Below, in pieces: positions 3,970 to 19,669 of a DNA stretch of 21,423 nt. The stretch is from a virus. The position numbers and the translations under genes were made by a program. The first letter of the stretch is position 1. Every line of letters begins with the position of its first letter. The stretch covers positions 1-21,423 of the IMG/VR virus record IMGVR_UViG_3300025889_001114; one strand, 5' to 3'. The notes under the pieces are model-generated. The model searched no databases, had not been told where the DNA came from, and worked only from the letters and a program-made list of their open reading frames with translations.

Positions 3970-3973
3970 ATCA

Positions 3974-4549: not shown

Positions 4550-4568
4550 TTACTTCTCCTTCGTGATT

Positions 4569-4580
4569 AAAGGATCCTTT
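4569..4580. promoter_or_regulatory. 12-bp perfect palindrome in divergent promoter region (candidate operator)
   Basis: AAAGGATCCTTT is a perfect dyad lying between the divergent genes. It falls at about -44 to -33 relative to the predicted rightward start site and within the first 25 nt of the predicted leftward transcript, so a dimeric regulator bound here could affect both directions. No second copy was noticed in the window. The operator role is inferred; it also forms part of a possible RNA hairpin in the leftward leader. Confidence 0.4.
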
Positions 4581-4588
4581 CGGTCCTT
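4570..4588 (-). other. 5' leader hairpin with GAAA tetraloop ahead of leftward early operon
   Basis: Read as leftward RNA, AAGGACC-GAAA-GGATCCTT can fold into a 7-bp stem with one bulged A and a GNRA-type GAAA loop. It would sit within a few nt of the predicted transcript 5' end (about 4592) and 8 nt before the Shine-Dalgarno AAGGAG (4556-4561). Such 5'-terminal stem-loops can slow RNase E attack or tune translation. Pairing is visible; the role is inference. Confidence 0.45.
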
Positions 4589-4597
4589 GACATTCCC

Positions 4598-4606
4598 TGA
4601 TATAAT
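4598..4606 (+). promoter_or_regulatory. Extended -10 promoter for the SNF2 helicase gene
   Basis: TGATATAAT is a perfect extended -10 (TGn plus TATAAT). The 17-bp-spaced -35 position (4578-4583, TTTCGG) is poor, as is common for extended -10 promoters. The predicted start near 4613 leaves a leader of roughly 35 nt before the ATG at 4647. A TTGACA at 4587-4592 is only 8 nt from TATAAT and so does not fit as its -35. Confidence 0.6.
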
Positions 4607-4627
4607 TAGATATGTAGGGATCGTCAA
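4599..4627 (-). promoter_or_regulatory. Sigma-70-type promoter for the leftward early operon
   Basis: On the minus strand TTGACG (4622-4627) and TATATC (4599-4604) are separated by exactly 17 bp, matching the sigma-70 consensus at 5/6 and 4/6 positions. Predicted start is near 4592, giving a leader of about 43 nt before the ATG at 4549. Its -10 uses the same base pairs as the rightward -10, so the two promoters would compete for polymerase. Confidence 0.55.
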
Positions 4628-4646
4628 CCACTTTTTTGAAAGAGCC

Positions 4647-6092
4647 ATGACATATCAATTTGAGACGGAGCCGTTCGCCCACCAACGCCAAGCGTTTGAA
4701 GATTCGTGGGCCGCGGACTACTACGCGTTGTTCATGGAAATGGGCACCGGAAAATCGAAGGTGGCTATTGACACCATCGCTGCGCTGTATGAGTCCGGCG
4801 ACGTAAACGCAGCCTTAATCGTGGCTCCGAAGGGCGTTTACGACAACTGGGTAAAGGGGGAGATCCCGGTGCATATGCCGGGTCGGATTGACCGGCTCGT
4901 TGTCCGTTGGATACCCGCGAAAACAAAAAAGTTCGAAGAAGAGCTTGAGGGGCTATCGGATCTTGAGCCTAAACATCTTCGCATGTTCGTGATGAACGTG
5001 GAAGCCCTTTCGACACCTCGTGGAGCCCGCGCTGCGTATGACTTTCTGAAGCGTTATCCTGACAACATCATGGTTGTAGACGAATCCACGACGATAAAAA
5101 ATCGCACCGCGCAGCGCACGAAGAATATCGTGACCCTCGGCACTTACGCCAAGTACCGCCGCATCCTGACTGGGTCGCCCGTCACGAAGAGCCCGCTCGA
5201 TCTCTACAGCCAGTGCCTGTTCCTGTCGGACCGGGCGTTGGGCTTCAAGAGCTACTTCGCGTTCCAGAACCGATACGCCGTCGTGCAACGACGCACGATG
5301 GGCCCCAAGGCTTTCCAAGAAGTTGTGGGCTATCGTCGTCTGGATGAATTGTCGGAGAAGCTCGACCGGTTCAGCAACCGCGTTCTGAAAGAGGACTGTC
5401 TCGACCTGCCGGATAAGGTTTACATCCGCCGGGACGTTCCACTGACGCCGGAACAAAAGCGCCTGTACGACCAGATGAAGAAGCTGGCGCTTGCCATGCT
5501 CGACAATGGCGAGCTAGCGACCACGGCCAGCGTGCTGACGCAGATCATGCGGCTCCAGCAAATCTGCTGCGGCTTCCTGACGCCCGACGACGGCGAGACG
5601 CAGGAGCTACCGCACAACCGCTTGAACGAGTTGATGGACATTGCAGAAGAGGTGCAGGGCAAAGTCATCATCTGGGCTACCTACACTCACGACATCCTTG
5701 AGATCCGTGGTGCGTTGGCCAAGAAGTATGGCGAGGACGCCGTGGCTTGCTACTACGGAGACACACCACAGGACGAGCGGCAGGAGATTGTCGAGAAGTT
5801 TCAAGACCCGGAGAACCCGTTGCGGTTCTTTGTGGGTCAGCCCCGAACGGGCGGTTACGGCATCACTCTAACAGCCGCCAGCACGGTGGTGTACTACTCC
5901 AACAGCTACGATCTAGAGATAAGGCTTCAGTCAGAGGACCGAGCGCATCGCATTGGTCAGAAAAAGTCGGTGACCTATATCGATCTCGTATCGCCCCAGA
6001 CGATTGACGAGAAGATACTGGGCGCGTTGAAGGCCAAGATCGATCTGGCCGGACAGGTATTGGGCGAGGACGCCCGGCAGTGGCTTATCTGA
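4647..6092 (+). CDS. SNF2-family superfamily 2 DNA helicase/translocase
   Basis: DNA-dependent ATPase of 481 residues, the only rightward gene in the window. Motifs in order: Walker A EMGTGKS (31-37), IVAPKGVYDNW (58-68) as motif Ia, Walker B VVDES (143-147, in place of the usual DEAH box), motif III TGSP (175-178), a C-terminal RecA-like lobe from about 335, and motif VI SEDRAHRIGQ (429-438), the SNF2 signature. At 481 residues it is a minimal two-lobe translocase with no obvious accessory DNA-binding domain. Phages often encode such proteins beside AEP primases, so a role in replication fork or D-loop processing is likely, though remodelling of host nucleoprotein cannot be excluded. The ATG at 4647 is chosen because the upstream in-frame ATG (4563) precedes the predicted transcript start. 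The ribosome site is weak (GAAAGAG). Its 3' end overlaps the convergent late gene by 8 nt. Confidence 0.93.
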   Translation: MTYQFETEPFAHQRQAFEDSWAADYYALFMEMGTGKSKVAIDTIAALYESGDVNAALIVAPKGVYDNWVKGEIPVHMPGRIDRLVVRWIPAKTKKFEEELEGLSDLEPKHLRMFVMNVEALSTPRGARAAYDFLKRYPDNIMVVDESTTIKNRTAQRTKNIVTLGTYAKYRRILTGSPVTKSPLDLYSQCLFLSDRALGFKSYFAFQNRYAVVQRRTMGPKAFQEVVGYRRLDELSEKLDRFSNRVLKEDCLDLPDKVYIRRDVPLTPEQKRLYDQMKKLALAMLDNGELATTASVLTQIMRLQQICCGFLTPDDGETQELPHNRLNELMDIAEEVQGKVIIWATYTHDILEIRGALAKKYGEDAVACYYGDTPQDERQEIVEKFQDPENPLRFFVGQPRTGGYGITLTAASTVVYYSNSYDLEIRLQSEDRAHRIGQKKSVTYIDLVSPQTIDEKILGALKAKIDLAGQVLGEDARQWLI

Positions 6093-6885
6093 TAGAGACG
6101 AGACTACCGATACCGCCGTGTACAGCGCCGCCTTGCCGATAGCCGCGGGCCGCGAACGAGGTTACTGCGCCTGAAGGGCTGTATCCGGGGTCCGGAGCAA
6201 AACCCGCCATCATTCCAGCCTCTGTTGAAGGCGTACTCACTCCGGGGGCAGACACGCTGGCCGAGGGGGCGGTCGTTTGACCGGGGTCAGTAACAGAAGA
6301 TACCGCATCGCTAATGGCGTTTGAGATGCTCTGCGTGGCCGCCGTCGTATCGACACCTATTGCACCAAGAGCGGCGTCTACTGCACCGGGTTGACTGGGT
6401 CCAAACGACACCGCGGGTGCACCGGGTGTTCCTATGTTAACGCTCATAGTGCTGGGTACACCGAAGGCGTCAGCAATAGTGGAAATACCTTTGGTTGCTA
6501 CCATCGTAGCTACAGGGCCGAGAGGAGTCGCCAGTAAACCCAGAGCGGGGATGCTAAAATCTATGTTAACCCCTTTAGGCCCGAACTGATCGAAACCTTT
6601 CGTGATGCCCAGCGCGTCCGTGACAAAACCCATAGACGGGCTATAAGCCTCCATCTCTCCCTTCGCGGCATCTACTGCTGCCGCTTCGGCTTCGGCCTCT
6701 GCAACGGTAGCTGGATTGTCTACTGCGGGATCAGTTCCGTGATGCCCACCCGCGCCGCCGTCACCACCGCCATCACCGCCCAGCAAAAGACGCTTGCGGG
6801 CCCAAACATCGCCCGCATCTACACCCGCCGTGGTGTAGATGTCGTTGAAGCCGTCTGCATAGGGGCTTTTACGCTCGTACTTCAT
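6085..6885 (-). CDS. Gly/Ala-rich hypothetical virion protein, last gene of late operon
   Basis: Protein of 266 residues with no domain I recognise. A charged N-terminus is followed by a Gly-rich stretch (36-50), an Ala/Glu helix (61-80), a hydrophobic Pro/Gly/Ala region with scattered Lys (about 94-145, containing SIPALGLLATPLGPVATMVA), a Ser/Thr/Ala/Pro-rich linker and a C-terminal YRQGGAV (249-255) followed by GGIGSLVSIR. The GGxV element recurs in other late proteins here, which together with position supports a structural or ejected protein. The start lies 17 nt inside the acyltransferase gene with GGAGAG as ribosome site. It converges on the SNF2 gene with an 8-nt overlap, and no terminator is visible at the junction. 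Being directly downstream of the acyltransferase, it is one of several possible acylation substrates; unproven. Confidence 0.8.
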   Translation of the reverse strand: MKYERKSPYADGFNDIYTTAGVDAGDVWARKRLLLGGDGGGDGGAGGHHGTDPAVDNPATVAEAEAEAAAVDAAKGEMEAYSPSMGFVTDALGITKGFDQFGPKGVNIDFSIPALGLLATPLGPVATMVATKGISTIADAFGVPSTMSVNIGTPGAPAVSFGPSQPGAVDAALGAIGVDTTAATQSISNAISDAVSSVTDPGQTTAPSASVSAPGVSTPSTEAGMMAGFAPDPGYSPSGAVTSFAARGYRQGGAVHGGIGSLVSIR

Positions 6886-7324
6886 GTTCCGCTCTCCGTG
6901 CAGCCAGCATGTCTTTCACGCCGGTAATATATGTCAGCCGGTCGTTCCTTGCGGCGCGCTTCATAAAAGCACCGTCCTTCATGTAAACATTGATGTAGCG
7001 GTTGGTAAGATCCTTTTGGATCATGCGTCCAAGCTTCAGGACGTTGCCATACGGCGCGATGAAATCAATGATGAACAGTTCCCCACACCAGTGGTCCGTG
7101 AACCAATCTTCGGGTTGCAGCTTCCGCGTCTTCATCAGGTAGCCTTTTGCGGCCTCGGGCGTGAGGAACGCGTGGCTGTACAGACCCTGCGGCTTACCGT
7201 CCTCGTAAAACACCTTCATCTTGCCCGCTTCGATGGCAGGCATAATCAGACGCTCAAGGTCGTGGACGTACCACTTCCTATGAACGTCTGACTGAAGCAT
7301 CAGATGTAGAACGTCGCCGATCAT
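6869..7324 (-). CDS. HlyC/RTX-toxin-activating lysine acyltransferase homologue
   Basis: 151 residues, resembling the toxin-activating acyltransferases (HlyC, CyaC, ApxC) that move a fatty acid from acyl-ACP to internal lysines of RTX toxins. Seen: SDVHRKWYVHDLERLIMPAI (12-31) lines up with HlyC around its catalytic His23 (HRNW...LPAI), placing the His at residue 15; DGKPQGLYSHAFLTPEA (42-58) matches the DNYPVAYCSWANLS region; EDW...LFIIDFIAPYGN (72-94) matches the DW...WFIDWIAPFGD block, placing the catalytic Asp at residue 87. The His-Asp spacing (72) is close to that in HlyC (about 69). It is slightly shorter than HlyC (170). No RTX toxin repeats occur in the window. The ATG overlaps the stop of the 1457-residue virion gene (ATGA), so the two are probably translated together, pointing to a virion protein as substrate. 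Family assignment is strong; activity and target are inferred. Confidence 0.85.
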   Translation of the reverse strand: MIGDVLHLMLQSDVHRKWYVHDLERLIMPAIEAGKMKVFYEDGKPQGLYSHAFLTPEAAKGYLMKTRKLQPEDWFTDHWCGELFIIDFIAPYGNVLKLGRMIQKDLTNRYINVYMKDGAFMKRAARNDRLTYITGVKDMLAARRAEHEVRA

Positions 7325-10300
7325 CCGAGAAGGCCACCAATACCTTGGCTACGGATCATGGATGATGCCGAATCGTTAGGAAAGAGTGCCGCATATCGCT
7401 GCCGTGTCGCTGGGGATGCCGGAGCTTGGGTGGGAGCCGAAGCAACGGACTGAGGTACTGGGGTCGGTGCAGGACGTGGCGGGATAGGCGGCGGCTGTAC
7501 CGCCGCAACCGTGCGGGTGGGAACCGCGGGTGGGCGGACAGAACCTTGTGTGCCGGGGGTTTCAGGTTCAGGAGCGGGCTCTTTTTTAGGCAGCGGCCCA
7601 ACTTCTTCTTCGCCGTACTCCATAACCCCAAGAGGGATGGCGCGTGCTGGGGCAGGAGTGGCCAAACTTATACCGATAATTTTTAGTTTATCTAAAATAA
7701 AATTAAGAGCGCCCGCTTTAGCCTCGTTTGTTCGACCCTTGCGAAGGGCCATTGCAAGAAGCTCCGGATCAAGAAGAATGTTTTCCAAAGCGTCATATTC
7801 CGAAAGGGCTGGTAGCTCTTGCGTGATCTTTCTAAGAAAACGGGAACCCGCTTCGGCTTCAATTAGTCCAGCACCCGTAGCACTGCGGCCCCCCATCATG
7901 CCGCCAACCATAGTACCAAGGCGGGCACCAGCCAAACGGGTATAGAAATCTAGCAAAAGAGGCGCATCCGCAGTGAACACGACATCACCCGCCAGCTTTC
8001 GACCCTCCGCCGCAATCAGAGCACGAAGACCTTGTTGCATGGAATTTAGCTGCGGCTCGCTAATGATTTTATTAGCCACCATCCAGTTACCAAGGGTGTT
8101 AGTGTCGCCTCTCGCATTTGGGATCTTGTCAAAGACCGCGTTATAAACAGCAGAGGGGCTAAAGCCGTCTTCTGAGCCTTTACCTCCGCGTGTAAAGACA
8201 AAATCCATAACAGCTTTTTGTAGTCCGGAACGGGCTTGCTCCAAATCGATTTCGGAAAAATTAATGCGGCCAGAGTATTTCGCTCTACGAGAAGGATCGG
8301 CAGCAGCGTTCAAAATTTCAACTAAGCTATCAAGCTCTTTCATGGGGTTCTTTGAGTTCCATGCAGCTTCTACGGCTTTAGTTGGATTCTCGTGCCCGAT
8401 CAAAGCTTGAAAAGCTTTAGCGTCTTTCACCCGATCATCAAGGCGCTTGATGACTCGATCAGATTTCAGCAAAAAGTCTGCCGTGGAGTCCGCCTCTTCA
8501 ATCATTTTCTGAACAGCGGGGAAGGATTCCAGCAAGTCGCTGTATTTTTCCCGCCATTGCATCAAAGCTAGATCTTGCGCGTCGGCAACCTGTTTTGGTG
8601 ACATCCGACGATCAATCGCCGCTCGGGTGGTAACATCGCGAATAGCCAGACGGAGCATGTTTGACAGAGTTTCGTCTGCGTTACCAATTTGATCTTTAAC
8701 GTCTAGCTCACCCATTTCGATTTCACGGGTAACCTGACGCACGGCTCCGTTCGGGTCCGTGACGGTTTCAAAAACTTCTACCGTGATCGGGTAACCCGTC
8801 TCGTTCAGCCGCTTGACGATCTCATTGTTTACCTCTTGGATCTGGTCAAGACGGATAGAAACAGCGTCGGGCTGACCCGAAAACAACTTAGTGGTCACCA
8901 TCCCCGGATCAACAACGCGTTTTCCGCGAGGGGTGGTTCTCATAATTTCGCCGGGGAAAGCCCTTCGGAGATACTCGTTGAAGGCAAACGACATGTCACG
9001 AGCGGCATCGTAGGCACCTCGCCCGTTGGGCATGCCGTTTAGGTCGTCTAGGGCAGCTTCCGCCATTGCATTAGCATAACGAGCCCATGAGGGATCGCTC
9101 TCAGCAAGACGACGGCCTAAGTTACGCATCTCCGAGTAGATCGACACTATGTTTTGTACCGTTATCGGATCAGATACAACGCCCGAGGCTTGCCTAGCGT
9201 CGGTGGCGCTTCTACGGGCGATGAGTTCTTGCCGCTTTAAGCCTAATAGGCTTGCAGCTATGCGGTCTTCTCCTCCGCGGGCAGCCTTTCTACCCGTCAG
9301 AAGCTTAGATTCCTCTCTTCCCAAAGCCTCGATCAAAGCAGTCGCGGACTGCTCGGACAAGTTCGCTTCGTCAAAAGGTTGGTCACCCATGACCCCGGAG
9401 ACGACCCGATTATACGTCCTGTTATACAAACCTCGTCCGGGTCGTCCTTCGGCTGTATCAAAAGCTTTCCGAAAATTTTGAGTTTCGCTCAGTTCGTCTA
9501 GTTTGTTTACAGAACTAAACCCGATCTGGCTCTTTAGCTCCATAATTCGGTCGTTCAACAGCCCAAATTCTGGAACGCGGGCCCTCAAAACATTCTTTTT
9601 GAGAGGATCTAACTCATCAACTATCGCATCCCATTCTTCAAAAATGTTAGGAACGGGGTTTTCCACCAGATCACCCGTTTCGGGATCCGCGCGATAGAAC
9701 TTATCCAGAACCTGCTTCTGATCTACTTGCCCCCACGCACGTCTTTCCAATGCGCGGAAAAGCTTCTCCTGATCTTTCACCGTGTTGGAGAGCGCCTCTC
9801 CAAGAGCTCGTCGGGCTTTTTCCCCGCCTTCCGGATAAATCTGTCGGATGGCGTCTATGTTTTTCTGGACAGCGTCTTCCATTCGTTTGGCGATAAGAAG
9901 AGAAATGCGGTCCTGCATCATCTCTCCAGCCATTTTTACAAGCTCAGTATCACCGGTTCCACGCAGGGCGTAAATGAGGCCCCGTTGAATTTCCTGACTT
10001 TTGTTAAAGGAAGCGTCTCGGGCTTGTTCTAATGCGCCCCTTTGACCGGAGCGGCCCATAACGGCGTTTTCCAACTGCGTAAGCGCCGCACTATCCATGT
10101 ACTGGCTAGAAAATATGGGGAGATTATCTCCCCCCTCGGGGGTTCTGCTGCCAAATGCGTCCAGTATCTCTTTTTTCAAAGTGTAGTTTACGACGTTTCC
10201 TTTGCCGTCAGTAACCGGATCCACCAAATAGGCTTCTAGGTTGGCTAAGATCGTATCGGGATCTTCTTGGTTGGCTTGAAGGACATCAAAAATGTCATCT

Positions 10301-11694
10301 ATAGCCCGACGACGCGCTCGGTTTTTAATTCCGAAAAGGTCTCTGCCTTCTCCGCGAGCTTTCCCTTCAGCCATGAGGCGTCTTTTTTCGCCCACCATAG
10401 AAAACAGGCGGGGCATGTACTTTAGAATTGACAGAGAAGGAGCCAAAGAACCGATGGTTTCCGCCCCAAGCCGCGCCCCTTCGGATCTAGGGGCATACCC
10501 TTCCGACATGTAAACAAGACCGCCCGTGGCCGGAGCCGCCGCGGCCTCCACACCGAGTGTTACCCCTTTTCCGACCGGGCCCATCTGTCGAAAAGATTGG
10601 CCCCCACCAACCAAAGCGTTTTCAACGTAGTCAATTCCACGAATAGCATTACGCGTGAAGAAGCCCATATCCGGAACTTCCTTAGATGCACGAGCCGCGG
10701 CTTCTTTTAAGGTTAGTCTTGTTTTATTGAAGGCGGCATCACCCGCTTTATTCGCAGCATCCTCTGCGGCCCTACCCGTAATTCCCCTTCGGGCACTTTC
10801 CTCAAGGCTTTTGTTTCGTGCCGCGGTCCGCGCTGCATCCGCAGCTTTTTCCGCCTCTGTAAATATCTGATTGCGGCGCTGCTCCATTTGAATGCGATTT
10901 GGACGGCCAGCTAATTTGCCAGACAAGTACCTCTGAATCAGGGGATTCTCGGCTTGTTCTGCCGTGATGACCGTTGCTTGGTTGGCCACCGGTAAATTTC
11001 TTATGTTATAAGCACTGTTTAAGACCGCACGTGGAGCCAAATACGGCATTAGTATGAAGGGGCCTACGTTTCCAGCCGACTCGAAGCTTCGGAACGCTCT
11101 CTCAGCAGACGGGGTCAAAAGCGCTCTTTCGGGATTTTCCGCTACTGCATCAGCTAGCTTCTGGCCCAAGAAAGAGTCCGCAAGAATGGAGCCAACGACA
11201 AAACCCGTAAAACCCGCAACAGGTTTTGATAAAACGCCAAACGGCGCGAGGGGACCGGGGAGAGGAACATAGGCAGGAGCCGCCGCCGCTGCAAGTTTTG
11301 CTCCCGCTACACCTCCGGCAAAAGTGGTTCCACCTCTTGTAATACCCCGTAGAAAAGCGTCTACCTCCGTAGGGGCCCCGTCTTCGCCCAGAGATTTCAA
11401 TCCGGAAAAGAGTTGAATGATCTGGTTGTCGGACAAGCCCTTACCATAAAGTTTCGAAGCCTGCTCCCCCGGCAACATCCTTATGATATCAGCCCGGCCT
11501 GAAATAACGTCCTCGTACCCGGCCTTACCTTCATAGCGAGGGTCCGAGTTGAGTTCATTGAGAACCAGTTTTGCAACCCCTTGCTCTACGTCAGACCCGT
11601 AGATTTCATACAAGCGGTTTAGCCCCTCGGGGGTAAACTCAACGGCCTTAAAAGGATTAGGCGTGGTGTCCTCGGCTACAGTGGTATCGGTCAT
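7321..11694 (-). CDS. Very large internal virion/ejection-type protein (1457 residues)
   Basis: No catalytic domain recognised. Length, high helix content, many charged Ala/Glu/Arg/Lys-rich segments and position suggest an internal virion or DNA-ejection protein comparable in role, not sequence, to the large core proteins of podoviruses. Residues 121-175 are Gly/Ala/Pro-rich and hydrophobic (GGTTFAGGVAGAKLAAAAAP, then FTGFVVGSILA), a candidate membrane-inserting stretch. The C-terminus has a Pro-rich linker (about 1365-1430, with PPPIPPRPAPTPVP) followed by RYAALFPND and a final GIGGLLG, which looks like a small docking or end motif. Base composition is lower in G+C than the neighbouring 13.5-17.3 kb genes (sampled 60-nt rows give 45-50% against about 67%). 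Starts are coupled: ATGA with the gene upstream and with the acyltransferase downstream. A GAGGGT ribosome site precedes the ATG. Function inferred. Confidence 0.85.
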   Translation of the reverse strand: MTDTTVAEDTTPNPFKAVEFTPEGLNRLYEIYGSDVEQGVAKLVLNELNSDPRYEGKAGYEDVISGRADIIRMLPGEQASKLYGKGLSDNQIIQLFSGLKSLGEDGAPTEVDAFLRGITRGGTTFAGGVAGAKLAAAAAPAYVPLPGPLAPFGVLSKPVAGFTGFVVGSILADSFLGQKLADAVAENPERALLTPSAERAFRSFESAGNVGPFILMPYLAPRAVLNSAYNIRNLPVANQATVITAEQAENPLIQRYLSGKLAGRPNRIQMEQRRNQIFTEAEKAADAARTAARNKSLEESARRGITGRAAEDAANKAGDAAFNKTRLTLKEAAARASKEVPDMGFFTRNAIRGIDYVENALVGGGQSFRQMGPVGKGVTLGVEAAAAPATGGLVYMSEGYAPRSEGARLGAETIGSLAPSLSILKYMPRLFSMVGEKRRLMAEGKARGEGRDLFGIKNRARRRAIDDIFDVLQANQEDPDTILANLEAYLVDPVTDGKGNVVNYTLKKEILDAFGSRTPEGGDNLPIFSSQYMDSAALTQLENAVMGRSGQRGALEQARDASFNKSQEIQRGLIYALRGTGDTELVKMAGEMMQDRISLLIAKRMEDAVQKNIDAIRQIYPEGGEKARRALGEALSNTVKDQEKLFRALERRAWGQVDQKQVLDKFYRADPETGDLVENPVPNIFEEWDAIVDELDPLKKNVLRARVPEFGLLNDRIMELKSQIGFSSVNKLDELSETQNFRKAFDTAEGRPGRGLYNRTYNRVVSGVMGDQPFDEANLSEQSATALIEALGREESKLLTGRKAARGGEDRIAASLLGLKRQELIARRSATDARQASGVVSDPITVQNIVSIYSEMRNLGRRLAESDPSWARYANAMAEAALDDLNGMPNGRGAYDAARDMSFAFNEYLRRAFPGEIMRTTPRGKRVVDPGMVTTKLFSGQPDAVSIRLDQIQEVNNEIVKRLNETGYPITVEVFETVTDPNGAVRQVTREIEMGELDVKDQIGNADETLSNMLRLAIRDVTTRAAIDRRMSPKQVADAQDLALMQWREKYSDLLESFPAVQKMIEEADSTADFLLKSDRVIKRLDDRVKDAKAFQALIGHENPTKAVEAAWNSKNPMKELDSLVEILNAAADPSRRAKYSGRINFSEIDLEQARSGLQKAVMDFVFTRGGKGSEDGFSPSAVYNAVFDKIPNARGDTNTLGNWMVANKIISEPQLNSMQQGLRALIAAEGRKLAGDVVFTADAPLLLDFYTRLAGARLGTMVGGMMGGRSATGAGLIEAEAGSRFLRKITQELPALSEYDALENILLDPELLAMALRKGRTNEAKAGALNFILDKLKIIGISLATPAPARAIPLGVMEYGEEEVGPLPKKEPAPEPETPGTQGSVRPPAVPTRTVAAVQPPPIPPRPAPTPVPQSVASAPTQAPASPATRQRYAALFPNDSASSMIRSQGIGGLLG

Positions 11695-13523
11695 TGTTTT
11701 ACCCTCACGCCCCCGCCTTCTCTAATTTCCCTGCTGATAGAATCGATGTCCTTTTGTGTACCGAAACCGGCGGTGGGAACATCAATAACCATACTCAGAG
11801 CAGACTCAGTTGCACGCAAACGGCCCTTTAGCTCACGACGAATGGTTGAGTCTGATTCCGTTTTCAAAGCGTTATATAATTCAACTTGTCGTCTCTGAAG
11901 CTCTCTCTTAACTATAGCGAGTTGGCTCAAAGCCGCTCGGGGGTTTGTGAAGAAGTTGTCTGCGGTTGGAACCAGATTCGCGAGACGCTCCTGTTCCGCT
12001 TCCGCAAATCGAGGACTTTGCGCCAAGCCCACGCGGACCAGTACGTTGAGGGTGTTAATATACTGACCGGCTTCCACCTCATCGATGGCATACTCTTGCA
12101 AACCCTCAAATACGGCACCGCCAACATCGGAGATAACCCGGTTAAGTTTCGGGAAAAACCCGACACCTTTTCGTACAGCCTCTACCGCATTTGACACATA
12201 CTGCGCCCGATCCTCCGGCCTCAAGTTAGGAAGAACCTGTGCTACGAGCTCCCCGGTAGTCAATTCAGTTTGTTCTTTCCCGGTTGCGTCCGTGTAGGTT
12301 TTCACCGCCTCCTTAAACGCGGCTGACGGGTTCTCAAGAAGATTTTGTACTTCTAGGATATCCGCTCGTGCCCCCGCCGCTTCTTGCTCTTCTACTAGCC
12401 TGCCAAGTTCGAAAGCTTTGTCGTCACTTACGAAGGCCGAACCCGCTAGTTCCGACGGAGTGAGTTCTAAGGGTTTTCCCTCGATATCGAAAAGTTCGAC
12501 ACCTTTTTGAACGACTTTAAGAATTTTGCCACCGGGCAGTATTAGGTTTCGGTACGCCGAGGCAAGTTCTGTTTCGCTAGTGTACCTTTCTAAAAGAGTA
12601 GGAGCCGCACTTACTTGGGTGGGGGTTAGTTGTACGATCTGACCCTCGGCCAGAGAAACCTTAACTCCCGGGATGGTGCCCGCAGGGATATTTTCAAGAG
12701 CTTTGAACTGAGTAGTTGCGCCGCCGTGTTTTTCCGGTCGGAATAGTTCAATCTTGTTAGGAGAAATCCCTTTTATTTCTTCGGAAGTGAGGGAAATTCG
12801 TCCGCCCACAGGTACTTCAACGCCTCTAACCGTTACCGGGGCGATTGCAACGAACTCTTTCATACTGTCTGAGGAGCTAGACCCCGGAGTTCCGTAGAAG
12901 CTTCCTTTGTTTTGATCTTTGATGCGTTCGGCCTTGGCGTACTGGCTGGGGTCATTTTCGTTAAAGCTAAACAAAACTGTAGTTTTGTCTGGTCCAACCA
13001 GATTTTTTAGGCTCGGGCTCTTTGCGTCTTTTGCTCGCAGGTCCGCCTCGGCCTTGAGCGCCGCGGCCCGTTCTGTTTCTGCTGCCTGCAACGCCGCCAG
13101 ATCAAACTTCTGCTGGGCTTCCCGCTGCTGCTGAGAAATCGCAGAGATGGAGGGGAACAACTGGGAGCCTTGCGCCGCCTGTGCCAGTTTCTCACCAAAG
13201 CTAGCGCCGACACGGCCACCCGTTGCACCGGCTAGCTGAAGACCAAAGTTGGCAATCGTAAACAACGCCTGAGACTGAGAGGCGCGGCGCTGTTCTTCGG
13301 GGTCGCCCAGAATACCTCGGTAAACGTCCCGCTTCTGTTCGAAGATGTCCTGCAAGGAAGCCACTCCGCTCTTTTCCGGAACAGGAATCATAACAGGCTG
13401 AATGAAGGTCTGATCGCCGTAGGGGCTACCCACGTTTAGACCAGCAGCACGCTGCTGTGCGGGCGAATACCCCGCCTCCATCATTGATGTCAGATCTGCC
13501 GGAACGAGAGGTTTCAGAGCCAT
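11691..13523 (-). CDS. Hypothetical virion protein, 610 residues, helical
   Basis: No named domain recognised. N-terminal region is partly disordered; residues about 85-160 hold a hydrophobic helix (ALFTIANFGLQLAGATGGRV) and a long Gln/Ala/Glu coiled-coil-like stretch (QQQREAQQKF, ETERAAALKAEADLRAKDAK). The middle (about 210-360) is rich in short beta-type segments such as VTVRGVEVPVGGRISL and LPGGKILKVVQKGVELFDIEG, looking like repeated small beta units; the C-terminal 200 residues are helical again. I have the impression of similar proteins in uncultured marine phages, always unassigned. It lies immediately after the 331-residue gene (stop and start abut, TAA then ATG) and overlaps the 1457-residue gene by ATGA. 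Likely an internal or tail-associated virion component; function unknown. Confidence 0.82.
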   Translation of the reverse strand: MALKPLVPADLTSMMEAGYSPAQQRAAGLNVGSPYGDQTFIQPVMIPVPEKSGVASLQDIFEQKRDVYRGILGDPEEQRRASQSQALFTIANFGLQLAGATGGRVGASFGEKLAQAAQGSQLFPSISAISQQQREAQQKFDLAALQAAETERAAALKAEADLRAKDAKSPSLKNLVGPDKTTVLFSFNENDPSQYAKAERIKDQNKGSFYGTPGSSSSDSMKEFVAIAPVTVRGVEVPVGGRISLTSEEIKGISPNKIELFRPEKHGGATTQFKALENIPAGTIPGVKVSLAEGQIVQLTPTQVSAAPTLLERYTSETELASAYRNLILPGGKILKVVQKGVELFDIEGKPLELTPSELAGSAFVSDDKAFELGRLVEEQEAAGARADILEVQNLLENPSAAFKEAVKTYTDATGKEQTELTTGELVAQVLPNLRPEDRAQYVSNAVEAVRKGVGFFPKLNRVISDVGGAVFEGLQEYAIDEVEAGQYINTLNVLVRVGLAQSPRFAEAEQERLANLVPTADNFFTNPRAALSQLAIVKRELQRRQVELYNALKTESDSTIRRELKGRLRATESALSMVIDVPTAGFGTQKDIDSISREIREGGGVRVKQ

Positions 13524-14519
13524 TTAGGCCATTCCTTGCATCTGCGGTTCTGCGCCACCGGCCAGCGTCATAACGCCACCTGCCATGTCACCCTGAACCG
13601 GAGTCGTCATCTCCTGTGCGGCTAGTGCGCCTACGCCAGCATCAACATTATCGCCCGGGGCCATCGTTTCTTCAACCAGAGAAAGCTGAACGATAGGCTG
13701 GACAAGAGCCAAAACCGACTCCGGCGTCTGCATGGCGTCTTCCTCGCCCACCAGCATGGCAAGCTCGGAACGGCGCTCTTCAACCGTGGCCGTATCGCCA
13801 CGGACCATGTTCATCATCTCTTCGTAGCTTTGGGCGGTTTCCGGATCGCCGTAGGACTGTGCCTCAGACGCAATCATCTGCTGGACTTCCGGTCCACCAC
13901 TAGCCTGCATCGCGCCCATCACAACTTCTTGCTCTGGCGGCGTCATCGCGGCAGCCGCCGCGGGCATCTGCTGGGCCATCGAGGCCATGTCAGAAGGCAT
14001 TACCATACCGCCGTCAGCGTATCCCGAACCCTCGTCCCTTACCTCCGGAGGATAATAGGACTCGCCTTGTGGCGGCATCATGTCTTGAAAGAACTGCTGG
14101 TCCAGACGGATAGGCGGAACGTATTCGGGGCGCTGATCCGTGGGCCGTGGGCCGTATACCGTCTCTCCTACCATAGGGCCCAAAATCTGCGGAGGTAGAT
14201 AATCGTAACCTTCCGGTCCCGGCCCGTCCGGAGACATAGTAGAAGGCCCCGTCGCGCCTTCCTGCATCATCATACGCTGTGCGTCCGCAATCTGAGCAAT
14301 TTCTTCCCGAGTGGGGGACCGGCCATACTGATCCATGAACGCAGCAATCGAAGCTTGCAGCGCAGCATTATCACTCAGCGTCGGCATAAGGCCCTGATTC
14401 ATCAGGATATCCATCTGCGTCGGCTTAAGGCCCCGATCCCTCAGAATATCCCCCTGCTGCATCTTAACGTCCCCGCCATTACGAAACATCTGTCGATCCA
14501 TTACGCCGCGGTTCATCAT
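13524..14519 (-). CDS. Met/Gln/Pro-rich hypothetical virion protein with GGxV motifs
   Basis: Protein of 331 residues, low complexity, very rich in Met, Gln, Pro and Ala. N-terminus MMNRGVMDRQMFRNGGDV is of a kind I associate with short conserved leaders in marine phage virion proteins. An imperfect repeat follows (ILRDRGLKPTQMD at 25-37 and ILMNQGLMPTLSD at 38-50). Further on are YADGGMV (167-173) and a C-terminal AGGVMTLAGGAE. No transmembrane helix or enzyme motif is visible; the acidic, unstructured character suggests a scaffold-like, internal or linker protein. The start is a double ATG overlapping the upstream stop (ATGATGA arrangement), so either Met could be used. Its stop abuts the ATG of the 610-residue gene. 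Function unknown. Confidence 0.82.
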   Translation of the reverse strand: MMNRGVMDRQMFRNGGDVKMQQGDILRDRGLKPTQMDILMNQGLMPTLSDNAALQASIAAFMDQYGRSPTREEIAQIADAQRMMMQEGATGPSTMSPDGPGPEGYDYLPPQILGPMVGETVYGPRPTDQRPEYVPPIRLDQQFFQDMMPPQGESYYPPEVRDEGSGYADGGMVMPSDMASMAQQMPAAAAAMTPPEQEVVMGAMQASGGPEVQQMIASEAQSYGDPETAQSYEEMMNMVRGDTATVEERRSELAMLVGEEDAMQTPESVLALVQPIVQLSLVEETMAPGDNVDAGVGALAAQEMTTPVQGDMAGGVMTLAGGAEPQMQGMA

Positions 14520-15511
14520 CCGAATAGTCCTGATTTAGAGGCACCCGCCGCCGCGCTAAGACCGGCGATGCCAAGACCCAAGAACTGCTGGGCCGGGGAC
14601 ACCGACGGAGAAGCTGCCGCCGAGATGGTCTGTTGAGTAGAAGGAGCGCCCTTATAGATGTCCGACAGGAACGAAACGCGCTGGTAAGGTTCGTACAACT
14701 GGGCCAATTCGCTCTGACGCTGCGCTTCAAGCTCGGCCTGCTGCTGGGCTTGCTGACGCGCACCCATTTCGTAGACCGCCTGCTGCTCGCGCAGAAGACG
14801 CTCGGAGAGCGTCTCGCCAAGGGCGGACTGTCGCAGGCCGAGCGTTCCAAGCGCCTCGCCGGTCTGAAGTCCCAAAGTTCCAAGCTGCTGACCGGCCTGC
14901 AAGCCAAGAGATCCGATCTGCTGACCGGCCTGCTGACGACGAAGCAGTTCATTCTGTGCCGCCTGCTGGGCCTGAAGGAAGTTCTGCGCCTGCGCCTGTG
15001 CAAGGGCCGCGGCGCGATTACGGTTGATCTCGGCCTCTGAAATGGCCGCACGGCCCCCGCCATACGCACCAGCGCCCGCGGCTTGCAGGCCCACCTGCGA
15101 TGCCTGAATGTTGTAGGCCCGGTTGATCTCGTCCTGAACCGCCTGCTGATAGGGGTTCATGTAGCCCTGAATCATCTCGCCGGTAATCGGACCAGCGCCC
15201 GCGGCCAACATGCCTTGGCCCGTGGCTACGCCGGGCTGAATGTAATCAATGGCCTGCTGCTGTGCGCCCATGATCGGGGCATAGCCCTCGCCCATCGTAA
15301 GGCCCGCTTCTTCCAGATACGGACGATACGCACCGATACCAGCCTCACTAAGACCAAAAGCGGCCTCCTGAAGACCAGATGGAGCCGCTACCTGCTGGGT
15401 CGGCAGGGTGATAGGCTGATCTGCCAGATCCTTGGCAGACTGTAGAAGCCCCAGCTTGAGGGCTTCAATTTCCGGGGCTTCACGTTGAATTATTTCTTGT
15501 GTTTCAGCCAT
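14516..15511 (-). CDS. Gln/Ala-rich internal virion (ejection-type) protein
   Basis: Protein of 331 residues. The central block YMNPYQQAVQDEINR (117-131) followed by QASQVGLQAAGAGAYGGGRAAISEAE (136-161) is characteristic, to my knowledge, of small internal or DNA-injection proteins encoded beside nozzle genes in many aquatic phages. Next comes a long Gln/Ala helix (167-195), three tandem 11-residue repeats (195-227), another Gln-rich coiled-coil-like region (240-272), and the motif FLSDIYKGAPSTQ (281-293) near the end. The C-terminus is Gly/Ala-rich and ends SGLFG. No enzymatic motif. A 1-nt TAATG overlap links it to the 601-residue gene, and its own stop overlaps the next start. Probably ejected with the DNA or lining the tail; inference from composition and context. 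Confidence 0.83.
   Translation of the reverse strand: MAETQEIIQREAPEIEALKLGLLQSAKDLADQPITLPTQQVAAPSGLQEAAFGLSEAGIGAYRPYLEEAGLTMGEGYAPIMGAQQQAIDYIQPGVATGQGMLAAGAGPITGEMIQGYMNPYQQAVQDEINRAYNIQASQVGLQAAGAGAYGGGRAAISEAEINRNRAAALAQAQAQNFLQAQQAAQNELLRRQQAGQQIGSLGLQAGQQLGTLGLQTGEALGTLGLRQSALGETLSERLLREQQAVYEMGARQQAQQQAELEAQRQSELAQLYEPYQRVSFLSDIYKGAPSTQQTISAAASPSVSPAQQFLGLGIAGLSAAAGASKSGLFG
14831..14929 (-). repeat. Three tandem 33-nt / 11-residue repeats inside the Gln/Ala-rich protein
   Basis: Residues 195-227 of the host protein read AGQQIGSLGLQ, AGQQLGTLGLQ, TGEALGTLGLR. The first two are also repeated at DNA level: CTGCTGACCGGCCTGC occurs on the plus strand at 14885-14900 and again at 14918-14933, exactly 33 nt apart. 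The 11-residue period with alternating Gly/Leu and Gln suggests hendecad-type helical packing. This is a site where repeat number could vary between related phages. Confidence 0.85.
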
Positions 15512-17316
15512 TACGCCATCGCCCTTCCGCGCCGCTCAAGGCCACGCATGATACCATACATGTTGTTGATACCGCGATTTAGATCACCGTTACCCGCGCC
15601 CTTGACGGCATTCGTTGTGAATACAAATTCGCCCGGCATTAGCAGGGCACGAACGCTGTCTTCGTTCGGGGTGCCTTCATAAGGCATGATGCCGCCAGTT
15701 CGGCGCGGGTAAACTTCTCCACCTTCTGCCGCACGCATCGGGCCAAACGGATTCTGTAGGCGTTCACGCTGCTGGCGCAGATACTCCTGAAGGCTTGCAA
15801 CCTGCGGGGATTCTGGGAGCCCGTAAGCGCTGGCGACCGTGGTCGGGCCGGTAGCCGAAGTCGGCGTGATGGCCGAACCGGGAAGCGTGTACTTCGTGCC
15901 GCCACCAGCCACGTCGGCGGCCAGAAGTTGTGCGCCGGTCGGGCCGCTCTTCAGGCCAAGAGGGGATTTCTCTTCTTCCGTGGGTTCCGGTGTGTCGAAG
16001 AAACCCAAGGCCGCAGCGCCTGCGGTTCCCGCAGCGGCGAGAGGACCGTAGGTTCGGAAAAAGCCGGGGCTCATTTCGGATTGAACTTTTTTAAGAGCCA
16101 GATCCGGACTAACCCCTTTTTCAAGTAACTTGGCATATTCAGGGGTTTTTACTACGTCTGTTGACGTTGGCCCGGACGGGAAGAACGTATCACCTAGCGT
16201 GGTCAGGGGTTCGTTGACCAGTCTCGTGCCATAATCCTGAACGGCAGCCACAGAGCGGTCAAAGAAATTCGAATCCATCGCCGCACCCGTGTAAATTGGT
16301 TCGCCACCGGGCATACCGGAAGAAAACTTACTGACGTTGATTGGGGGCGTGGGGCCAAAAACTTCGGCCATATTAGGTTGGTATGTACCAATCTGCATCC
16401 CGGGAACGCTAGGAGCCGTTGCCGGGGCAACTGCCACCTGAACAGGCTGGGGCGTTCCCGCAGCAGCAATGGTCTGATCCACCATACTAGGCGGCGTGGC
16501 GGCAATAGTCGGATTGACCACACTGGGCTGCGTGGCGGCACCAAGCTGCTCTGCTGTCGGAGCACTAAACACCGACCCACGCTCAAAGAACGTGTTGGTG
16601 TCCAGCGTCTGACCAACGCGAGCACCAACGGTGTCAAGGTAGCTTCCGGCGTCCATAGCGCGGGATACGTTTTCTCCGAAGGAGCTTCCAGCCGGGCCAC
16701 CAAAGCCCGCGGTTACCGCACCGATACCGCCAGAGATCGCAGCACTGATTGCAGCGTCCTTCAAACTACCACCGTTAATCAGGGTGGCGATGCCCGAACC
16801 AAGCGCCGCGCCCCAAACCGGGCCAAGAACCGCCGTACCAATGATGGGCAGAATAATCGGAGCGGCCTTCTTGAGAACCTTGCCGACGCCCTTAACAACC
16901 TTCTTGACGCCCTTAAAAATCTTGGAAAGGAAGCCAAACTCCATAAGGCCCGTTTCCGGGTTAATCGAGTTAGCCGAAGCACCCACAACATACTGTTCCG
17001 GGTTCTCAATACCCATCTCGCGCAGATGACCAAAGATGGAGTCGCGCAGTTCAGGGTTATTTTCAATAAGCGGGGCAGGAACAACAATCTCACCCGGAGC
17101 CAGATGGGCTACAAACTGGTCGCCGCCGCGGCCATACTTGGCCATGCGGGCGGCCTGCTCCTGAAACTCTGCAATACCGCCGGACTCACCGTAGGTCTTT
17201 CGGGCCTCCTGACGGGCAAGCTCATCATAATCCTCATCGGAAATGATGAAATCGGCAATACCCCCGTCGGGGATGATTACCTCTTCTAGTTCTTGTTCTG
17301 CCGGTAACGCCATCAT
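15511..17316 (-). CDS. Putative membrane-active virion protein with Lys-rich amphipathic helix
   Basis: Protein of 601 residues, no named domain recognised. After an acidic N-terminus comes a small motif YGRGGDQFVAHLAPGEIVVP (61-80) that recurs in shorter form near the end (MPGEFVFTTNAV, 560-571). Residues 128-152 form a strongly cationic amphipathic segment with eight Lys (SKIFKGVKKVVKGVGKVLKK at its core) running directly into a hydrophobic stretch (153-180: IILPIIGTAVLGPVWGAALG) and a second Ala/Gly one (187-208), reminiscent of membrane-disrupting peptides. The rest is a long Pro/Ala/Thr/Val-rich linker, then AAEGGEV (529-535). Context, upstream of other ejection-type genes, suggests a protein that inserts into or crosses the host envelope. 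Double ATG start overlaps the upstream stop; GGAGCAGG is the ribosome site. Function inferred. Confidence 0.83.
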   Translation of the reverse strand: MMALPAEQELEEVIIPDGGIADFIISDEDYDELARQEARKTYGESGGIAEFQEQAARMAKYGRGGDQFVAHLAPGEIVVPAPLIENNPELRDSIFGHLREMGIENPEQYVVGASANSINPETGLMEFGFLSKIFKGVKKVVKGVGKVLKKAAPIILPIIGTAVLGPVWGAALGSGIATLINGGSLKDAAISAAISGGIGAVTAGFGGPAGSSFGENVSRAMDAGSYLDTVGARVGQTLDTNTFFERGSVFSAPTAEQLGAATQPSVVNPTIAATPPSMVDQTIAAAGTPQPVQVAVAPATAPSVPGMQIGTYQPNMAEVFGPTPPINVSKFSSGMPGGEPIYTGAAMDSNFFDRSVAAVQDYGTRLVNEPLTTLGDTFFPSGPTSTDVVKTPEYAKLLEKGVSPDLALKKVQSEMSPGFFRTYGPLAAAGTAGAAALGFFDTPEPTEEEKSPLGLKSGPTGAQLLAADVAGGGTKYTLPGSAITPTSATGPTTVASAYGLPESPQVASLQEYLRQQRERLQNPFGPMRAAEGGEVYPRRTGGIMPYEGTPNEDSVRALLMPGEFVFTTNAVKGAGNGDLNRGINNMYGIMRGLERRGRAMA

Positions 17317-17555: not shown

Positions 17556-17852
17556 CTATGGGGTCAATACTGCAACAGAACCCACCGCGCCGGTGCCGCT
17601 GGATCCCGCCACATGCGGGTTAGAAAGCCTAGAAATCTTAACAAAACCATCCACTTCGAACAGAGCGCCCTGCTCCAAGCCTACATCGTTCGTCGGAAGC
17701 GCCGTAAACGTGCCCACGGTAGCCCGCATCTCACCCGGCTGCTGCTCTTGGATAATGTACGTCGTTAACAAACGCACCATATCCGAGAAATATGTGCTGT
17801 TATACGTGTCCGGCGGGACCGCAAAGCGAGGTGGGACAAGACCGCGGGGCAT
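17556..17852 (-). CDS. Small hypothetical virion protein, 98 residues
   Basis: No domain recognised. N-terminus is Pro-rich (PRGLVPPRFAVPPDTYN), followed by one helix (YFSDMVRLLTTYIIQEQQ, about 21-38) and then beta-type segments (GTFTALPTN, ALFEVDGFVKISRL) with a Ser/Gly/Ala tail. The layout (helix then small beta domain) fits a minor head-tail or tail component. Its ATG overlaps the stop of the gp10-like gene by one base (TGATG), so it is translationally coupled to it, and the conserved pairing of a small protein with the stabilisation protein is suggestive. Function unknown. Confidence 0.78.
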   Translation of the reverse strand: MPRGLVPPRFAVPPDTYNSTYFSDMVRLLTTYIIQEQQPGEMRATVGTFTALPTNDVGLEQGALFEVDGFVKISRLSNPHVAGSSGTGAVGSVAVLTP

Positions 17853-19669
17853 CAGCGTGCTCCATCCGGTCGAACATCAAGCCGTGGCGAACCTAGACGC
17901 CATGCGACACCGAGCCCGTCGCTCTCGACGCGGAGACCAAAGGAGCGGCCTCGGGCTCGGATATTGTTTTGCGTTGCAGATTCCCCCACGGTGGTAGCCG
18001 TAGAGCTTGTGTAACCCGTACCGGGGAACCGTTCTGTCTTAATCGTAAAGGTCGCCTGCGGCAGAGCCATGTCGCTCGAATTAGCAAAGCTGATGTCAGG
18101 TATCAAACGCCGGGCAAATACGAATTTATCACCTTCCCCTATGTCTACGGGGCTAGACTCAATATATGCGGTAAAGGCCGACCCGTCGTCATCTGTACCT
18201 ATTTCGTGGTTGTAGAGATAGCCGTTGTTGAAGCCCGCAACAGGGTACTCTTTCAATCCTCGATCCAACCAACAATCACGGCCCAGATTACCGAAGTACC
18301 AGATGTTCTGTTCGTAATTGAAGGTGACGTACTTGTCGTTGTCGTCTGAGCTTGCAGACGGATAAAACCACGTGATTTCACCAAAAGAAGTGTTGGCGCA
18401 GGCAAACACCTTTTCAGCCTGCGTATCGTTAAAGTCGCGGAACACCGTGTCGCGGACCGTACACGGCAGCGCTTTAACCTGACCATCGTAGAGATAGAAC
18501 CGATTGCGGCCCATCCAGAATACCGCGTCGTTAAGCGCAACCGCGGCATTCGGACCAATAATGGTGGTGCCCGCACTGATCTGGGTCAGCCCAAAGGTAA
18601 ACGGTGCGCCAATAAACTGCATCGAATGCACAGATGAGTCCGTGATGATGACAATCTCACGTCGTGTCTCAATGGCCTGAACAATCTCAGTGCCACTGCC
18701 CACGATCAAGTCACCCGCTGTATTCTCCGCCGTCGCCGCCCAATCTGTGGCGTTTTCCTGATCGCTAAAGCGGATCAAGAGCTTGTCTTGCACAGAGCTA
18801 CCCTCGGGGTTACAGCCGAAAGCGACGACATGACGGTCACGGTCAGATACCAGTACCTGACGAGCCACCGTCGGTGCCGAAGACCCCAAGCTGGAAAGGG
18901 TTACCGCACGAGCCGAAAAACCGCCGGTGTAATCCCAGTAGTAAACACCTGCGTCTCGGATATTGAAGACGAGATCCTCGCCGAAGTTGTCCTGCTTCCA
19001 GATACGGATAGAGCCGCCACCGGCTACCGTGGTAGCTGCCGAGCCCCACGTGCCACGGCTCCATGTTCCTGCACCCCAACCTGTACCGGGGACCACGGTG
19101 TCCAAGCCCACGTTAATCTGGTAAGCCGCAACTACCGCACCGCCGCCATTTCCGGTGTCCGAACCGTCCGCGGTCACAGAAACCGTAATCGTATAGGTGT
19201 TGTCGTTTGGAACCGTCTGGATCTCGTATTCCTGATTAAGGATCTCCGCCGTCACATTGCCGCCAAGGCTCACGGCGTCACTAAATGTAACGTAATCGCC
19301 AGCGATGGCCCCGTGTGCCGCATCCGTAACGGTTATGGTCGAGGAACTGGCGGTGGCGGAGAAGGTAGCGGCATTCGTTGTTGTGGAACGAAGGGGCGTG
19401 ATGTCGTTATACCCAAAGCCCTCTTCGACATAAAACTTCTTGTTGGTGCCGACGCCCATGAGCTCATTGCCATCTCCGGCACGCCAAGCGTGTAGAGAGC
19501 GGGGCGTTCCAACAATGGTATTGCTGCTGTATTTCTGCCAGCCGCCAATCTTTTCTGGGAACCCGAACCGGAATCGCACCTTGTCACAGTCGTTCCACCC
19601 GCCCTCGTTAGAATAGGCAGTGGTTTCTGTGTTCACACCCGGCTGAAACTGGAGCTTCGTCAGGGTCAT
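17852..19669 (-). CDS. Packaged-DNA stabilisation/tail nozzle protein, P22 gp10-like
   Basis: Structural protein of 605 residues, probably part of the tail hub that closes the portal after DNA packaging. The N-terminus reads LQFQPGVNTETTAYSNEGGW, then DKVRFRFGFPEKIGGWQKY (29-47), a signature I associate with the P22 gp10/phage stabilisation family found in many podovirus-type phages. An Ig-like or beta insertion rich in Thr/Ser/Gly lies at about 97-180 (SATASSSTITVTDAAHGAIAG region), then a beta-propeller-like series of short strands with Trp/Gly turns (for example FWMGRNRFYLYDGQVKALPC, and DKYVTFNYEQNIWYFG), and a C-terminal beta region. Length is in the range of such proteins (P22 gp10 is 472 residues; this one has the insertion). 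Spacing to the upstream gene is 8 nt. Family call by recognition, not by search. Confidence 0.78.
   Translation of the reverse strand: MTLTKLQFQPGVNTETTAYSNEGGWNDCDKVRFRFGFPEKIGGWQKYSSNTIVGTPRSLHAWRAGDGNELMGVGTNKKFYVEEGFGYNDITPLRSTTTNAATFSATASSSTITVTDAAHGAIAGDYVTFSDAVSLGGNVTAEILNQEYEIQTVPNDNTYTITVSVTADGSDTGNGGGAVVAAYQINVGLDTVVPGTGWGAGTWSRGTWGSAATTVAGGGSIRIWKQDNFGEDLVFNIRDAGVYYWDYTGGFSARAVTLSSLGSSAPTVARQVLVSDRDRHVVAFGCNPEGSSVQDKLLIRFSDQENATDWAATAENTAGDLIVGSGTEIVQAIETRREIVIITDSSVHSMQFIGAPFTFGLTQISAGTTIIGPNAAVALNDAVFWMGRNRFYLYDGQVKALPCTVRDTVFRDFNDTQAEKVFACANTSFGEITWFYPSASSDDNDKYVTFNYEQNIWYFGNLGRDCWLDRGLKEYPVAGFNNGYLYNHEIGTDDDGSAFTAYIESSPVDIGEGDKFVFARRLIPDISFANSSDMALPQATFTIKTERFPGTGYTSSTATTVGESATQNNIRARGRSFGLRVESDGLGVAWRLGSPRLDVRPDGAR

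Follow-up and report, generated by a model that had tools for sequence, protein, structure and literature searches.

The stretch analysed here, called the window, comprises the 21,423 nucleotides of the IMG/VR virus record IMGVR_UViG_3300025889_001114 (positions 1 to 21,423), and our subject is a pair of adjacent genes on its minus strand: a gene for a HlyC-family acyltransferase and the Gly/Ala-rich gene directly downstream of it. A HlyC gene followed by a gene with a short N-terminal motif is a specific, repeated pairing across phages with different gene neighbourhoods, and we infer from the sequences that the motif protein is the substrate of the enzyme. The pair and its upstream neighbour are arranged as follows.

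6869..7324, minus strand: HlyC/TAAT-family acyltransferase, 151 residues, ATG start, with a His15 and Asp87 dyad and Ser12 (from Pfam, fold and alignment)
6085..6885, minus strand: conserved partner, 266 residues, Gly/Ala-rich, candidate substrate (from the motif pairing and a reading of the partner)
6766..6885, minus strand: partner residues 1-40, an N-terminal module with RKRLLLGGDGG at its end, the window form of the HlyC-linked motif
6496..6552, minus strand: residues 112-130 of the partner, its 19-residue stretch of highest hydrophobicity and a possible membrane-active segment (by its Kyte-Doolittle mean)
6088..6132, minus strand: C-terminal GGAVHGGIGSLVSIR of the partner, whose GIGS/GIGN ending recurs in several partners of group A (defined below)
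7321..11694, minus strand: 1457-residue neighbour with an ATGA overlap to HlyC, a part-length homologue of the 'DNA transfer protein' of phage DSL-LC04

The HlyC ATG overlaps the stop of the 1457-residue gene (ATGA), and the 266-residue gene, which was absent from the original prediction for this DNA, overlaps the HlyC end by 17 bases and has GGAG before its own ATG.

The 151-residue protein scores 77.6 bits with the Pfam HlyC family (PF02794), for which the cut-off is 25, and the match was recovered in a scan of the whole 21,423-base record. The sole solved chain matched by sequence was that of ApxC (4whn), with an E-value of 3.7e-8 for the single protein and 8.8e-23 for a profile of 51 viral rows. 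In the single-protein alignment, His15 and Asp87 lie opposite positions 35 and 104 of the 4whn chain, which with an offset of 11 become His24 and Asp93 in ApxC numbering; Asp93 is the residue that we take to be the partner in the ApxC catalytic dyad. His24 is given as the active-site residue of ApxC in PMC8510554; Ser20 and His23 of HlyC and a GNAT-like fold of ApxC are given in PMC8339906. The 51 rows, which represent 48 of 59 candidate references (near-duplicates and cut copies omitted) together with L110, L114 and L164, retain Ser12 in 50, His15 in 50 and Asp87 in all 51, with identity to the window protein falling to 29%; the sole row without Ser and His is L164. The HlyC protein of Roseobacter phage CRP-235, aligned separately, retains Ser, His and Asp.

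An AlphaFold2 model built from the window protein and 50 viral relatives reached a mean predicted local distance difference test score (pLDDT) of 91.8. Its top PDB structure match was again 4whn (Foldseek E 1.8e-10), and VIA-align superposed the two over 133 residues at 3.9 Å with a Z of 15.0, the next entry being a putative acetyltransferase at Z 8.8. Membership in the HlyC/TAAT family is therefore supported by the sequence cut-off, the ApxC-like variant of the GNAT fold and the Ser-His-Asp residues. HlyC was the sole Pfam match; there was no match to the Phage_T7_Gp13 profile (PF11090), to which T7 gp13 itself does match. The product of 6869-7324 is, as judged from sequence and modelled structure, an acyl-ACP-type lysine/amine acyltransferase of the HlyC (TAAT) fold, with its activity predicted. 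This agrees with the original prediction, which had called it HlyC-type with a catalytic His15 and Asp87 and had pointed to ApxC for structural comparison.

A first scan for viral relatives of the enzyme returned 17, and an alignment-based scan confirmed 141; we retained 80 of these. Their gene neighbourhoods sort into groups A-E, with CRP-235 in addition. Group A is the window type, in which the cassette closes an ejection operon; the cassette precedes terminase and portal in group B, follows head genes in group C, precedes genes similar to PHROGs 5107 and 3287 in group D, and lies between portal and major head protein in group E. The upstream neighbour of HlyC varies by group. The downstream product, in the representatives read, has long stretches rich in Gly, Ala, Ser or Asp. 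Although blastp leaves these partners in separate clusters, an N-terminal module is common to them, with C-F-G-G-D-G-G-G or a variant beginning at about residue 12 to 41. We describe the HlyC-linked motif by the pattern [C/L/V]-[F/Y/L]-x-[G/S]-D-G-G.

The pairing was counted in 81 loci fetched by HlyC queries alone, a set that includes the window and some near-identical contigs. The motif lies downstream of HlyC in 75 of the 79 loci with visible downstream sequence (Cys form in 59, Leu in 9, Val in 6 and Tyr in 1), or for 58 of 60 when counted by distinct HlyC protein. By comparison, it was found at 5 of 1998 other ORF (open reading frame) ends in the same loci, a control that takes every stop-to-stop frame of at least 100 residues, spurious frames included. 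The reverse search, with a DNA pattern for the Cys form that was blind to HlyC, gave 86 stretches. Among 52 ORFs of at least 100 residues with the motif in their first 70, HlyC lies directly upstream of 41, the contig end cuts 4, and 7 have neither. Of these seven exceptions, L107 carries a HlyC fragment; L139 has a different, 169-residue gene upstream, and its protein can start M-CFGGDGGGG; L155 has no HlyC; and the occurrences in L101, L108, L140 and L160 look like chance. Synonymous codons differ across copies of the motif, with both GAC and GAT present, which places the constraint on the protein and rules out that the motif stems from a nucleic-acid signal or a nested frame. Searches of the phage collection by tblastn recovered CRP-235 gp30 itself alone when that protein was the query, and nothing for a group D partner.

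A family of related contigs around L164 allows phages with and without HlyC to be compared. The L164 portal is 82.7-85.1% identical to those of L171, L209, L215, L222, L240, L249 and L261 (the portal of L164 and L171 is PHROG 1216), the same small gene as in L164 occurs in six of those seven contigs, and the partner is homologous. L164 has a divergent HlyC (1907-2314, minus strand), and its partner starts MFLFLKPQI-CFGGDGGGG. In 11 contigs with homologous partners that lack HlyC within the sequence examined, several of them close copies of one another (L171, L209, L215, L222, L240, L249 and L316-L320), the partner starts M-CFGGGG. L261, also without HlyC, has Met directly before CFGG, with an upstream start also readable, and L322 holds a partner fragment only. 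The whole records of L171, L209, L215, L249 and L261, which are fragments, gave no HlyC match. A second homologue with HlyC, L321 (gene 3-326, likewise divergent, E 1.9e-14, cut by the contig end and compared without the portal region), has a partner extension ending PIKPLIAYGGDGGGG. The N-terminal extension and the Asp of GGDGG are thus found in 2 of 2 contigs with HlyC and in 0 of the 11 clear contigs without it.

As to what the partner is, the most direct indication comes from the 784-residue partner of L114, which matches PHROG 873 ('endolysin', head and packaging; 1.6e-23) and PHROG 7182 ('tail injection transglycosylase'; 2.1e-15) and matches no Pfam family. The two PHROG matches point to an injected virion protein in the L114 clade. 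A moderately hydrophobic Gly/Ala stretch is present in the partners examined (a mean of 1.59 at residues 112-130 of the window partner, and 1.02-1.90 across 12 partners), a property compatible with membrane contact. The residues available for acylation differ between partners. Those of L065, L066, L081, L082 and L083 (329-390 residues, the 374-residue copy of L082 being cut by the contig end) contain zero lysine, whereas it does occur in most of the adjacent proteins counted in L065, L066 and L083. Cysteine is absent at the motif in the partners of the window clade, L035, L040, L042 and L061, and in the L061 partner both Lys and Cys are missing from the first 50 residues. No motif lysine or cysteine can therefore be the acceptor in all partners, and the N-terminal amine is the sole amine or thiol present in all partners read.

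The remaining mapped genes of the window lie upstream of the cassette on the same strand.

11691..13523, minus strand: 610-residue protein of the same operon, without a confident family
13524..14519, minus strand: 331-residue protein of the same operon, without a family
14516..15511, minus strand: 331-residue protein matching PHROG 4287, 'DNA ejection protein' (E 2e-7)
15511..17316, minus strand: 601-residue protein with weak tape-measure matches
17852..19669, minus strand: 605-residue virion structural protein (PHROG 3287)

Ejection-protein genes thus adjoin the cassette (the PHROG 4287 match, the weak tape-measure matches and the homologue of the DSL-LC04 'DNA transfer protein'), and the window neighbours with family matches are phage structural and replication genes. 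No RTX nonapeptide was found in any window ORF, no secretion genes were recognised in the window, and no CdiA effector was found beside the enzyme, the 1457- and 266-residue neighbours matching no family of contact-dependent inhibition (CDI). The enzyme had been described as start-stop coupled to the 1457-residue gene within a virion operon free of toxin genes and RTX repeats; the ATGA overlap, the lack of nonapeptides and the structural and ejection matches bear this out, and HlyC is retained in the structural clusters of phages. On the other side of the cassette, a SNF2-type helicase gene (4563-6092, plus strand) is convergent, its end overlapping that of the partner gene by 8 bases. Two further minus-strand ORFs, 3184-4215 and 3974-4549, share 242 bases; in the former, the match to Pam3_Gp34 begins at residue 105, so the true start of that ORF is probably later.

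We lean, by a modest degree, towards the two genes forming a cassette in which an ejected virion protein is acylated in its N-terminal region, in a manner analogous to CdiC and CdiA, a proposal that draws on sequence, a structural model and analogy for both substrate and chemistry. During virion assembly, the enzyme would take an acyl chain from host acyl-ACP and attach it to the N-terminal module of the protein encoded directly downstream. The most economical acceptor would be the alpha-amine, because it is common to all partners whereas Lys and Cys are not, though certain groups might use Lys or Cys. The acylated partner would then be packaged and ejected, for which the only direct hint is the transglycosylase-type domain of one clade, and its acyl chain might help it to engage the host envelope. 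The substrate is accordingly to be sought in the downstream gene, and the observation is broader than the original prediction stated. Its general idea, that the phage acylates one of its own ejected proteins, gains support here; the choice of the 1457-residue protein does not, the constant companion of the enzyme being the downstream gene (266 residues in the window). Nor can lysine be the general acceptor if the downstream partner is the substrate, given that some group E partners are lysine-free.

Several observations weigh against this proposal. Partners tested other than that of L114 match no functional family, and the motif offers no universal nucleophile, some partners being free of Lys and others free of Cys at the motif. 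L051-L054 carry HlyC without the motif downstream. CRP-235, which comes from another collection and stands outside the 81-locus counts, has no motif in the 40 kb examined, and its downstream protein is annotated as starting MGGGGGD. Finally, the L164 enzyme has lost both Ser and His and keeps its partner pairing, which perhaps reflects an alternative mechanism or decay.

The last of these observations, together with the tight pairing to a short peptide module without a universal nucleophile, would suit a HlyC-like protein that serves as a dedicated chaperone or packaging adaptor and binds the partner's N-terminal module, whether or not it also acts as a catalyst. We consider this unlikely, as the 50 other rows, with identities as low as 29%, all retain Ser, His and Asp, for which a pure chaperone would have no need; moreover, His mutants of CdiC and ApxC keep residual activity according to PMC8510554, so the L164 protein need not be dead. 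The enzyme might alternatively acylate the 1457-residue ejection protein, leaving the downstream gene a bystander. The ATGA coupling speaks for this, as does the presence of a cluster 3 member (a homologue of the 1457-residue protein) before HlyC in 40 of 40 group A loci with an upstream gene. However, DSL-LC04 keeps a homologue and gave no HlyC match in 61.5 kb, and the HlyC-bearing records of groups B, C and E and of CRP-235 gave no match to the 1457-residue protein, which is weak evidence, several records being fragments and the same search having missed four divergent group A records. A single-sequence scan of viral contigs with the 1457-residue protein returned no relative. On the DSL-LC04 and group comparisons we reject that protein as a universal partner, and the reading leaves the downstream motif unexplained; we judge it improbable, and the 1457-residue neighbour is probably the wrong substrate.

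Two further explanations place the enzyme outside virion maturation or in a toxin lineage. It could modify a host protein, or be accessory cargo unrelated to the virion, and in one phage record a HlyC-type gene is indeed annotated as a toxin-activating acyltransferase. Its position within the structural clusters of several phage types, its translational coupling and its pairing with one motif gene make this very improbable. We give least credence, and very little, to the idea that the cassette is left over or domesticated from an RTX toxin operon, with a degenerate toxin as the partner. The gene order of enzyme and then partner is the same, an RTX gene lies directly downstream of HlyC in 8 of the 14 readable loci among 20 cellular loci fetched (and upstream in 1), and the partner is rich in Gly and Asp. 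Yet an ORF with at least two RTX nonapeptides occurs in 0 of 80 viral HlyC loci (window not counted), versus 12 of 20 cellular ones, by which we reject the partner as an RTX remnant; the tested partners match no RTX family, and the motif is N-terminal. The phage cassette mirrors the enzyme-then-substrate order of toxin operons. Among cellular sequences, Roseibium/Labrenzia genomes (L291, L294, L296-L301 and L303) carry HlyC relatives with RTX-repeat ORFs nearby, and the five of these RTX-repeat ORFs that read as a single long frame have 1060-1188 residues and begin MGSSSKSIHQTYKLYGLYG.

A tree of the 51 viral rows (window included), 20 cellular sequences and CRP-235 resolved no deep branches and fits one or several origins of phage HlyC. 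Within it, the three group B rows cluster with L033, L040 and L044 of group A (support 99/97), consistent with a cassette that has moved from one genome context to another.

We also scanned for proteins starting M-CFGG(D/G), as seen in the relatives of L164 that lack HlyC. Among the matches listed, which the counts in this paragraph refer to, 120 loci (L167-L286) gave 90 usable ORFs, 61 of them with an upstream ORF. Gly occupies the D/G position in 89 of the 90, HlyC was absent both from the 61 upstream ORFs and from all 120 loci, and phage proteins of many kinds, from about 80 to 1572 residues long, start with MCFGGGGG. In 13 of the 61, a proportion for which there is no control, the upstream ORF falls in one of two blastp clusters that are GNAT or GNAT-like. 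The six-locus GNAT cluster comprises L168, L187, L216, L266, L273 and L283, and the L266 member precedes an M-CFGGGG protein of 1572 residues; of the four members tested in Pfam, L168 and L273 lie above the GNAT cut-off and L187 and L266 below it. The seven-locus GNAT-like cluster (L169, L196, L208, L214, L248, L251 and L268) gave no Pfam GNAT match in the four members tested, and a model from the alignment of those four has a GNAT fold (pLDDT 92.7) with 462 PDB matches whose E does not exceed 0.001, the listed ones being acetyltransferases. An upstream GNAT with an M-CFGGGG protein is a possible second kind of pair of acyltransferase and virion protein. T7 gp13 directly precedes gp14, which starts M-C-W, and PMC6775973 suggests the GNAT pc40 of roseophage SIO1 as a gp13 counterpart.

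Sequence homology was rejected both between HlyC and these gp13-slot GNATs (hhalign E 0.15 over 18 columns) and between the latter and T7 gp13 (E 0.27, weak alignment); what HlyC shares with one of these clusters is the GNAT-type fold only. As a speculation that we regard as doubtful, HlyC and the gp13-slot GNATs might form one general class of N-terminal acyltransferases of phage virion proteins, capping or lipidating an early-ejected C-F-G-G-(D/G)-G-G protein. Phages with HlyC would then place a short extension ahead of the element and acylate this added segment, at its alpha-amine or a nearby nucleophile, anchoring the ejection apparatus in the host envelope.

In the open-access literature we found no account of the partner gene and its motif, most subscription papers falling outside that search, and no paper joining HlyC, acyltransferase or acylation with phage, virion or ejection protein. 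The words 'HlyC' and 'lysine' are absent from the main text of PMC9038755, the source paper for CRP-235, and in the text searched of the ejection-protein review PMC8954989, lipidation before ejection was not found, 'acyl' occurring 0 times and 'modification' once. HlyC in a phage virion cassette is a known family in a new setting. If the proposed cassette function is correct, some phages lipidate a protein ahead of its ejection, and the HlyC family reaches beyond toxins and CDI into virion maturation. The window then supplies a testable enzyme-substrate pair (6869-7324 with 6085-6885) and a recognisable motif, and mass spectrometry offers a simple way to test how ejected proteins get into the envelope.

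Compared with HlyC, ApxC and CyaC (PF02794; 4whn), the phage enzymes share the family, the predicted fold, the Ser-His-Asp residues and a gene order in which the enzyme immediately precedes its presumed substrate. The phage locus differs in having no RTX toxin, its partner being a Gly-rich phage protein with an N-terminal GDGG-type motif and in some cases free of lysine. Members of the same family are already on record in Caudoviricetes, each annotated singly: gp30 of CRP-235, a 'putative toxin-activating lysine-acyltransferase' (MZ892989) whose gene sits among late genes, as well as A0A6J7WXX7 and PHROG 20210. The GNATs found by internal virion proteins, as in the T7 gp13 slot or SIO1 pc40 (PMC6775973), resemble the cassette in lying before or beside the gene of an internal virion protein; they differ in having ordinary GNAT folds, an expected use of acyl-CoA and no sequence link to HlyC, and Pfam lists T7 gp13 as a 'probable scaffold protein'. 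A further likeness is to CdiC of class IV CDI, a HlyC homologue that, according to PMC8510554, acylates CdiA and raises binding to target cells. Both systems involve a HlyC homologue and a non-RTX target (in the phages a presumed one) delivered to other bacteria, with envelope binding raised in the case of CdiC. CdiC modifies one lysine of a large surface effector, whereas in the phages the cassette is a virion one, the module is short and N-terminal, and the partner is another protein.
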